This document shows, in pieces, positions 19,337 through 46,257 of a stretch of 60,102 bases of DNA. Position numbers and translations under genes: made by a program. This stretch comes from Nitrospira sp. CR1.2. GTDB taxonomy: Bacteria > Nitrospirota > Nitrospiria > Nitrospirales > Nitrospiraceae. Under the pieces are notes generated by a model. That model was given only the letters and a program-made list of their open reading frames with translations, made no database searches and was not told the origin of the DNA. Position 1 is the stretch's first letter, and each line of letters opens with the position of its first letter. The stretch spans positions 1 through 60,102 of the forward strand of contig WIAG01000017.1 in assembly GCA_014055495.1 (NCBI GenBank). Reading direction: 5' to 3'.

Positions 19337-19810
19337 CTAGACGCGTTTGAGCAGTCGGAACATGCCGTCGCGAAGGTCTTGAAGCAGGCTTGGTTGTTGG
19401 GTGATCTGGTGGCGTTTGATGAGTAGTTCCGCCTGCGGTGGACAGAAAGGCCATTCGATGGCGCTCTTTCCTTGAACCTGGGCCAGGAAGTCGTCATCCG
19501 ATCCTTCGGCTGGGGCTTGAAGGACGATCATGGGATCCTTGGGATCCAGGAGGCAAGTCGACTCATAGCCGCCTTGCCGGTGCTGGTCCGGTCGGTTGAG
19601 GGACACCTTGTGCGCGCCGGTTGAGAAGACGGTATCCCCTTCGCGAATGGGACCTTCCGGCGCGAGGGAAAAGAGCATCATCGGGGTCAGGATAATCACC
19701 GCTGCGGACGCCGCGATCGACCAGAGCGGTGGCTCGGCCCCCTGCCGGGGAAGCGTGTTCCGCCGATTCACGATGCTGGCAGGCCTCCATACGATGGGAC
19801 TTGCGTCCAC
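19337..19810 (-). CDS. Hypothetical single-pass membrane protein
   Basis: A 157-residue protein of no recognised family. It has one transmembrane helix (about residues 30-50, IAASAAVIILTPMMLFSLA) after a basic N-terminus, then a soluble part of about 105 residues that is probably periplasmic. The frame starts with GTG 19810; a second GTG at 19772 would shorten it. It converges on msrA with 20 bp between stops. Confidence 0.55.
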   Translation of the reverse strand: MDASPIVWRPASIVNRRNTLPRQGAEPPLWSIAASAAVIILTPMMLFSLAPEGPIREGDTVFSTGAHKVSLNRPDQHRQGGYESTCLLDPKDPMIVLQAPAEGSDDDFLAQVQGKSAIEWPFCPPQAELLIKRHQITQQPSLLQDLRDGMFRLLKRV

Positions 19811-19894
19811 ATCACAACTGCTTCACACTCACGTCCCGCGTAACTCGGTCATCTTACCCGATGCGACGGAGAAAGGCGCGCGCCGATACCCGAT

Positions 19895-20038
19895 ATGGTT
19901 TATTGTCCCATGTGCTCAGGCACTGCCAAGCGAGTGGCCCGGCACGGTTGGAAGGATTTTTTTCTGCATTTGATGGGGTATTACCCATTCCGATGCACAC
20001 TCTGTCTCCACCGCTTTCGTCTGCGTCGCCGCACCTGA
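19895..20038 (+). CDS. 47-residue zinc-ribbon microprotein, copy 1
   Basis: The frame encodes MVYCPMCSGTAKR, a basic/hydrophobic helix (VARHGWKDFFLHLM) and GYYPFRCTLC followed by a basic tail HRFRLRRRT. The pattern is CPxC-26-CxxC, a likely zinc knuckle pair, with an amphipathic helix that may touch the membrane. A paralogue of exactly the same length lies 180 bp downstream; conserved residues include CxxCSG, KR, FF, GYYPxRCxxC. No strong ribosome site is visible; pairwise conservation is the main support. Function unknown. Confidence 0.65.
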   Translation: MVYCPMCSGTAKRVARHGWKDFFLHLMGYYPFRCTLCLHRFRLRRRT

Positions 20039-20218
20039 TCGACGCTTCCTGCCGTCCGGCGGGCATTCACCCGTACATCTTTGTGTCGATATGAATCACG
20101 TCATTGGTCGTTTGGATGACTTCATAGTCGTCCAAACTGGACTTGCATCGCCTTGGGGTGTTTCAGTAGGATTCTTTCCCGAAGCGGCACCCTGGCCCCG
20201 ATCGGATGAGTGACTCAC

Positions 20219-20362
20219 ATGTCTTTTTGCGGAAAATGTTCCGGTTATACGAAACGGTCCCGCCGTCAGGGGCTCTTGGATTTCTTCTTCTTCCTGATCG
20301 GCTATTACCCCTATCGCTGTCTGCGCTGCGGTCGCCGAACCCATCTGCGTCAACGGGTCTGA
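20219..20362 (+). CDS. 47-residue zinc-ribbon microprotein, copy 2
   Basis: A paralogue of the preceding microprotein: MSFCGKCSGYTKRSRRQG, a strongly hydrophobic LLDFFFFLI and GYYPYRCLRCGRRTHLRQRV. Both Cys pairs are kept at identical spacing, as are SG, KR and GYYP. The 180-bp spacer between the copies has no gene. An overlapping longer frame (20206-20586) is a shadow. Function is not known; candidates are membrane-associated metal binding or nucleic-acid binding. Confidence 0.7.
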   Translation: MSFCGKCSGYTKRSRRQGLLDFFFFLIGYYPYRCLRCGRRTHLRQRV

Positions 20363-45741: not shown

Positions 45742-46257
45742 ATGAAAGAACTGCATTGCCCGGCTTGCGGCACACCCTGCGTCAGAGTGATTTCCGGGAC
45801 GAGTCTCATCGAGAAGACACTGAACCGGTTGTCCATCTTTCATGTGCGGTGCCAGCTCTGCACGGCTCGTTTTCAGGCGCGCAGGCCGGGGAATCGAGTG
45901 ACGTCACAAGCCTTTGACCGGCGTGAATACAGGCGTCTGCCGGCGAACTTCGCGGCCACGCTGATACTGGATCAGCCGGCGGCCGGTGGTTTGGTCACCG
46001 ATATTTCGATGGGAGGCTGTGCCTTGCAGGCAACGACGACGCTGACACGAGGGACGTTTGTGAAGTTCGTCTTGCACGGCCCGTCTGGCCAAGGGGATAT
46101 CAACGTCGATTCTGCGATGATTTGCTCCGTCCAGCCTCAATCGGTCGGCGTGAAGTTTTTGGAATTCGACCCGGAGGACAAACAACGCATGGGTCAATTG
46201 ATTCTGGAACTGCTCGCCGACCAACAAGCCCCTCCTCGCATCAGCTCGCGAAGCTGA
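45742..46257 (+). CDS. Zinc-ribbon plus PilZ domain protein
   Basis: A 171-residue protein. The N-terminal ~45 residues carry two Cys pairs (CPACGTPC, RCQLC), a zinc ribbon. A PilZ barrel follows (about 58-155): DRREYRRLPANFAATL has the RxxxR motif and VTDISMGGCALQ keeps the DxSxxG loop intact, so cyclic di-GMP binding is more likely here than in the two PilZ proteins near 15 kb. VGVKFLEFDPED ends the barrel. The start is 1 bp after the MazG-like stop. Confidence 0.85.
   Translation: MKELHCPACGTPCVRVISGTSLIEKTLNRLSIFHVRCQLCTARFQARRPGNRVTSQAFDRREYRRLPANFAATLILDQPAAGGLVTDISMGGCALQATTTLTRGTFVKFVLHGPSGQGDINVDSAMICSVQPQSVGVKFLEFDPEDKQRMGQLILELLADQQAPPRISSRS

Follow-up and report, generated by a model that had tools for sequence, protein, structure and literature searches.

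A conserved tandem pair of predicted zinc-ribbon microproteins in Nitrospira, related by sequence to a PilZ-fused domain

Very small proteins consisting of one zinc-finger domain have been described in archaea. Haloferax volcanii encodes dozens of single-domain zinc-finger micro-proteins, and of 16 deletion mutants, 12 showed a phenotype, with biofilm formation and swarming among the traits affected (PMC6562870). A further report states that several one-domain zinc-finger micro-proteins do not bind zinc (PMC11241148).

Here we describe two bacterial microproteins, A and B, encoded in tandem in a 60,102-nucleotide stretch of Nitrospira sp. CR1.2 DNA (contig WIAG01000017.1; hereafter the window; Table 1). 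An earlier note on this DNA had reported two 47-residue frames at 19895–20362 that share CxxCSG, KR, an FF helix and GYYPxRCxxC, and both frames are as it described. A pairwise comparison gave 52% identity over 46 residues. Each protein has four cysteines arranged CxxC...CxxC; both resemble one-domain C4 zinc-finger micro-proteins in being shorter than 70 residues, with two CxxC motifs and nothing else. The remark that the frames are too short for the usual gene callers was overstated, since ORFs as short as about 90 bases are within the range of common gene callers. For B, an alternative GTG start at 20210, nine bases 5' of the ATG, would yield a protein of 50 residues; the equivalent codon is GTG in just 13 of 28 relatives, so that the ATG is the likely start.

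Table 1. Coordinates, in the window, of the microprotein genes and of associated features.
Feature	Position	Strand	Description	Basis
157-aa ORF	19337–19810	−	One likely membrane helix, no Pfam match	
Upstream region of A	19796–19894	+	ACTTGC element, conserved TTCACACTCA, GGAGAAAGG leader stretch	Alignment
Microprotein A	19895–20038	+	47 aa, stand-alone C4 zinc ribbon (predicted)	ORF, ATG start, translation MVYCPMCSGTAKRVARHGWKDFFLHLMGYYPFRCTLCLHRFRLRRRT
Upstream region of B	20134–20218	+	GACTTGCA, about 18 nt, TAGGAT; GTGAG ribosome-binding-like stretch	Spacer alignment
Microprotein B	20219–20362	+	47 aa from ATG, stand-alone C4 zinc ribbon (predicted), paralogue of A	Translation MSFCGKCSGYTKRSRRQGLLDFFFFLIGYYPYRCLRCGRRTHLRQRV
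Ribbon-PilZ protein, 171 aa	45742–46257	+	N-terminal ribbon (match 45754–45888) fused to PilZ domain	

The tandem pair is present, in frame throughout, in 28 of 29 genomes of the genus, among them Candidatus Nitrospira defluvii (FP929003.1). The contig of the sole exception (G016) stops just past ttcA, where the pair would be expected, and this genome was therefore not counted as an absence. The earlier note had held that loss of the cysteine pairs or of the frame in related genomes would speak against its proposal; both frames are open and identical in length in 28/28 genomes, and the four cysteines (residues 4, 7, 34 and 37 in A) are retained in every one of them, for A and B alike. Variable columns at the first, second and third codon positions number 12, 8 and 42 for A and 10, 9 and 42 for B across these genomes. 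The note had also suggested comparing dN/dS across homologues, and NG86 values over the 28 genomes, calculated without pairs saturated at synonymous sites, are 0.077 (A) and 0.030 (B). One frame on the strand opposite B is likewise open in 28/28 genomes; the codon-position pattern fits the plus frame. B is 87–100% identical across 17 named Nitrospira genomes, mostly 94–98%, and is more conserved than the adjoining glucose-6-phosphate dehydrogenase gene (zwf, 82–93% in the same genomes; ttcA, 78–91%). A and B are real genes under purifying selection, and the idea of duplicated zinc-ribbon microproteins is borne out by their conservation, invariant cysteines and paralogy. A tblastn search of plasmids returned no match.

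The gene order zwf, msrA, minus-strand 157-aa ORF, A, B and ttcA (minus strand) is fixed in the 17 named genomes, as far as each contig extends. The 157-aa ORF, 65–88% identical across the genus, is divergent from A, and the two have a common upstream region. With zwf, msrA and ttcA as its flanks, the A-B pair is not accompanied by c-di-GMP or PilZ genes in any conserved arrangement. Where stand-alone ribbons elsewhere were checked, their neighbouring genes were unrelated and had nothing in common. In two genomes (L137, L138), a gene for a di-haem cytochrome c peroxidase (CCP_MauG) is found no more than about 4 kb from another stand-alone ribbon.

Each gene is preceded by conserved elements of its own. 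ACTTGC lies about 96 bases 5' of A in 25 of 28 genomes, and the conserved region upstream of A is probably its promoter and leader. The A-B spacer varies from 172 to 444 bases and is little conserved apart from one block, the TAGGAT-containing element listed in Table 1, which a loose pattern recovers in 25/28 genomes. We infer that this block may serve B as a sigma-70-like −35/−10 promoter; a strict promoter consensus scan did not list the upstream elements of either gene. A near-perfect 12-nt inverted repeat at 20110–20137, upstream of B, was considered as an operator or RNA element and dropped because its left arm is not conserved in most relatives.

No family in Pfam, NCBIfam or PHROGs scored above its cut-off for A or B. 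The proposal of an undescribed family therefore stands insofar as no library names it; it does not stand as regards isolation, as the same domain also occurs fused to PilZ. Relatives found by sequence are of two main kinds, short ORFs with hardly more than the ribbon and ORFs of approximately 160–220 residues with a ribbon and then PilZ, and one profile retrieves both free-standing and PilZ-fused ribbons. Pfam PilZ matched three of the longer relatives with E values of 1e-12 to 7e-12, and a PilZ-type NCBIfam model gave a weak match in 29 of 31. No library model covers the combination of zinc ribbon and PilZ as such, and a literature search largely confined to papers outside subscription journals found no description of ribbon-PilZ proteins, which is weak evidence that none exists. 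Across an alignment of 60 ribbons, seven columns are invariant (C, C, P, R, C, C, R). Both A and B show the pattern of the ribbon domain, CxxC and CxxC about 26 residues apart with a YPxRCxxCxxRF block, which in B ends in RT in place of RF. Neither has the PF07238 barrel or the RxxxR and [DN]xSxxG motifs of PilZ, both proteins ending after the ribbon. By this comparison of sequences, A and B are free-standing versions of a domain found elsewhere in fusion with PilZ, and their identity as conserved C4 ribbon microproteins homologous to the PilZ-fused ribbons is close to certain.

Besides A and B, the source genome itself holds three further clear members, namely a short ORF and two ribbon-PilZ proteins, which brings the total to five. 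The ribbon-PilZ gene in the window (own-genome profile search, E 2.7e-6; Pfam PilZ, E 4.4e-12) is not adjacent to the A-B pair but about 25 kb away, between a MazG/PRA-PH-like ORF and the pantoate-beta-alanine ligase gene. Among 295 sampled Nitrospirota genomes, the profile matched 77 from the family of the source genome and a single one from a second family in the order, with no match at E 1e-4 in the other Nitrospirota families listed; a single-sequence search reached more genomes of the second family. Outside Nitrospirota, where eight single genomes were searched, the ribbon occurs in some Deltaproteobacteria and in Rokubacteria, mostly fused to PilZ. Some Nitrospirota genomes carry three or four ribbon-PilZ genes in tandem arrays (L163, L164, L097). 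The genus also has a further stand-alone paralogue with CxC instead of CxxC as its first knuckle, in which the metal site may be altered (L003, 1504–1605; L075, L076).

The tree of the 60 ribbons places the free-standing ribbons on one side of a branch with 99/98 support and the fused ones on the other, with A and B each forming one group; it is based on 45 columns, with weak deeper forks, and is unrooted, so that it fits either loss or gain of PilZ. This separate, supported branch indicates that the free-standing ribbons are a maintained lineage and not recent fragments of gene decay. That A and B are degenerate remnants of ribbon-PilZ genes after loss of PilZ, a thought invited by the frequent fusion of the shared domain to PilZ, is thus extremely improbable; dN/dS far below 1, identical length in 28 genomes and the separate upstream elements of each gene also count against it.

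AlphaFold2 modelled the ribbon-PilZ protein of the window with a pLDDT of 87.8, its ribbon comprising a strand, an 8-residue helix and two strands, followed by the PilZ barrel, which Foldseek matched to Alg44, YcgR and MapZ. B alone was modelled poorly (mean pLDDT 57.6), with a similar order of elements and a 9-residue helix at LLDFFFFLI. The four cysteines would form two knuckles expected to hold one zinc ion, with a core made up of the short hydrophobic helix between the knuckles and the YYPxRC strand; the surface and tail, rich in Arg and Lys, would provide a binding face. We tentatively favour, while stopping short of calling it probable, a reading of A and B as paralogous basic zinc ribbons acting as soluble cytoplasmic adaptor or regulator modules, whose partners would be of the same class as those of the ribbon in PilZ proteins, without the PilZ switch. 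The homology with the ribbon-PilZ proteins is observed; a shared adaptor role, and with it a tie to PilZ/c-di-GMP signalling, is what we infer from it. A more specific version, in which the c-di-GMP output of Nitrospira is tuned by free-standing ribbons that compete with ribbon-PilZ effectors, or dock on them, in trans, appears distinctly unlikely; if true, the microproteins would be counterparts of the targeting domain that the effector itself carries.

The strong basicity of both proteins (pI about 10.5, net charge about +9) also suits small housekeeping or regulatory factors that bind nucleic acid, be it RNA, the ribosome, RNA polymerase or DNA, with no link to PilZ. The very slow evolution of B and a weak pattern likeness to the small zinc ribbons of polymerase and ribosome point the same way, but those matches lie below cut-offs and are mostly C2H2 fingers with a PFRCxxC pattern in common, and the family, confined to Nitrospirales and a handful of other lineages, lacks the wide distribution of core transcription or translation factors. 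We consider this explanation possible, if doubtful. A peripheral membrane location, with the FFFFL helix, the YYP aromatic patch and the basic tail docked on the anionic inner membrane, seems unlikely. It draws on the hydrophobic 11-mer GLLDFFFFLIG of B (mean Eisenberg 0.85) and its highly basic flanks, yet the hydrophobic moment is low (0.25), A is less hydrophobic, and the equivalent stretch of the ribbon-PilZ protein lies within its folded ribbon. The membrane-seeking helix of the earlier note is not supported as a transmembrane segment, peripheral contact being possible: with 8–9 residues between the zinc knuckles in the models (that of B at low confidence) the helix is too short to span the membrane, and, where a transmembrane protein would have a hydrophobic helix of approximately 18–20 residues, even the best 19-mer includes Pro, Arg and Cys.

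A and B represent a family of bacterial zinc-ribbon microproteins that is well supported and linked through homology to a PilZ-associated domain, and that is found in an ecologically important genus, the nitrite-oxidising Nitrospira. Should the PilZ link be true, they would offer a testable case of a second-messenger effector controlled by microproteins.

Among known zinc-binding families, the FmdB-type zinc ribbon (TIGR02605 / PF09723 Zn_ribbon_8) gave a weak match at the second knuckle, below its curated cut-offs (21.3 versus 31.3 bits; 17.9 versus 34.4), and A and B were not assigned to it. Sequence matches in the PDB, mostly eukaryotic C2H2 fingers, were set aside, the shared PFxCxxC pattern being attributed to chance or convergence. 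Like A and B, the Haloferax volcanii micro-proteins (PMC6562870, PMC10716476, PMC11241148) have fewer than 70 residues and two CxxC motifs, stand alone and occur many per genome; they are archaeal and carry two C(P)XCG motifs, and the likeness is one of kind, not of a homologous family. The ribbon-PilZ proteins (PF07238) of Nitrospirota, Deltaproteobacteria and Rokubacteria share with A and B the cysteine spacing, the position of the helix and the YPxRCxxCxxRF block. They differ in an N-terminal CxxC...YPFRCQLC whose second knuckle is mostly CQLC, whereas A and B lack PilZ and fall on a separate branch. Single-domain zinc-finger microproteins are already known as a kind; specific to A and B is their homology to a PilZ-associated domain.
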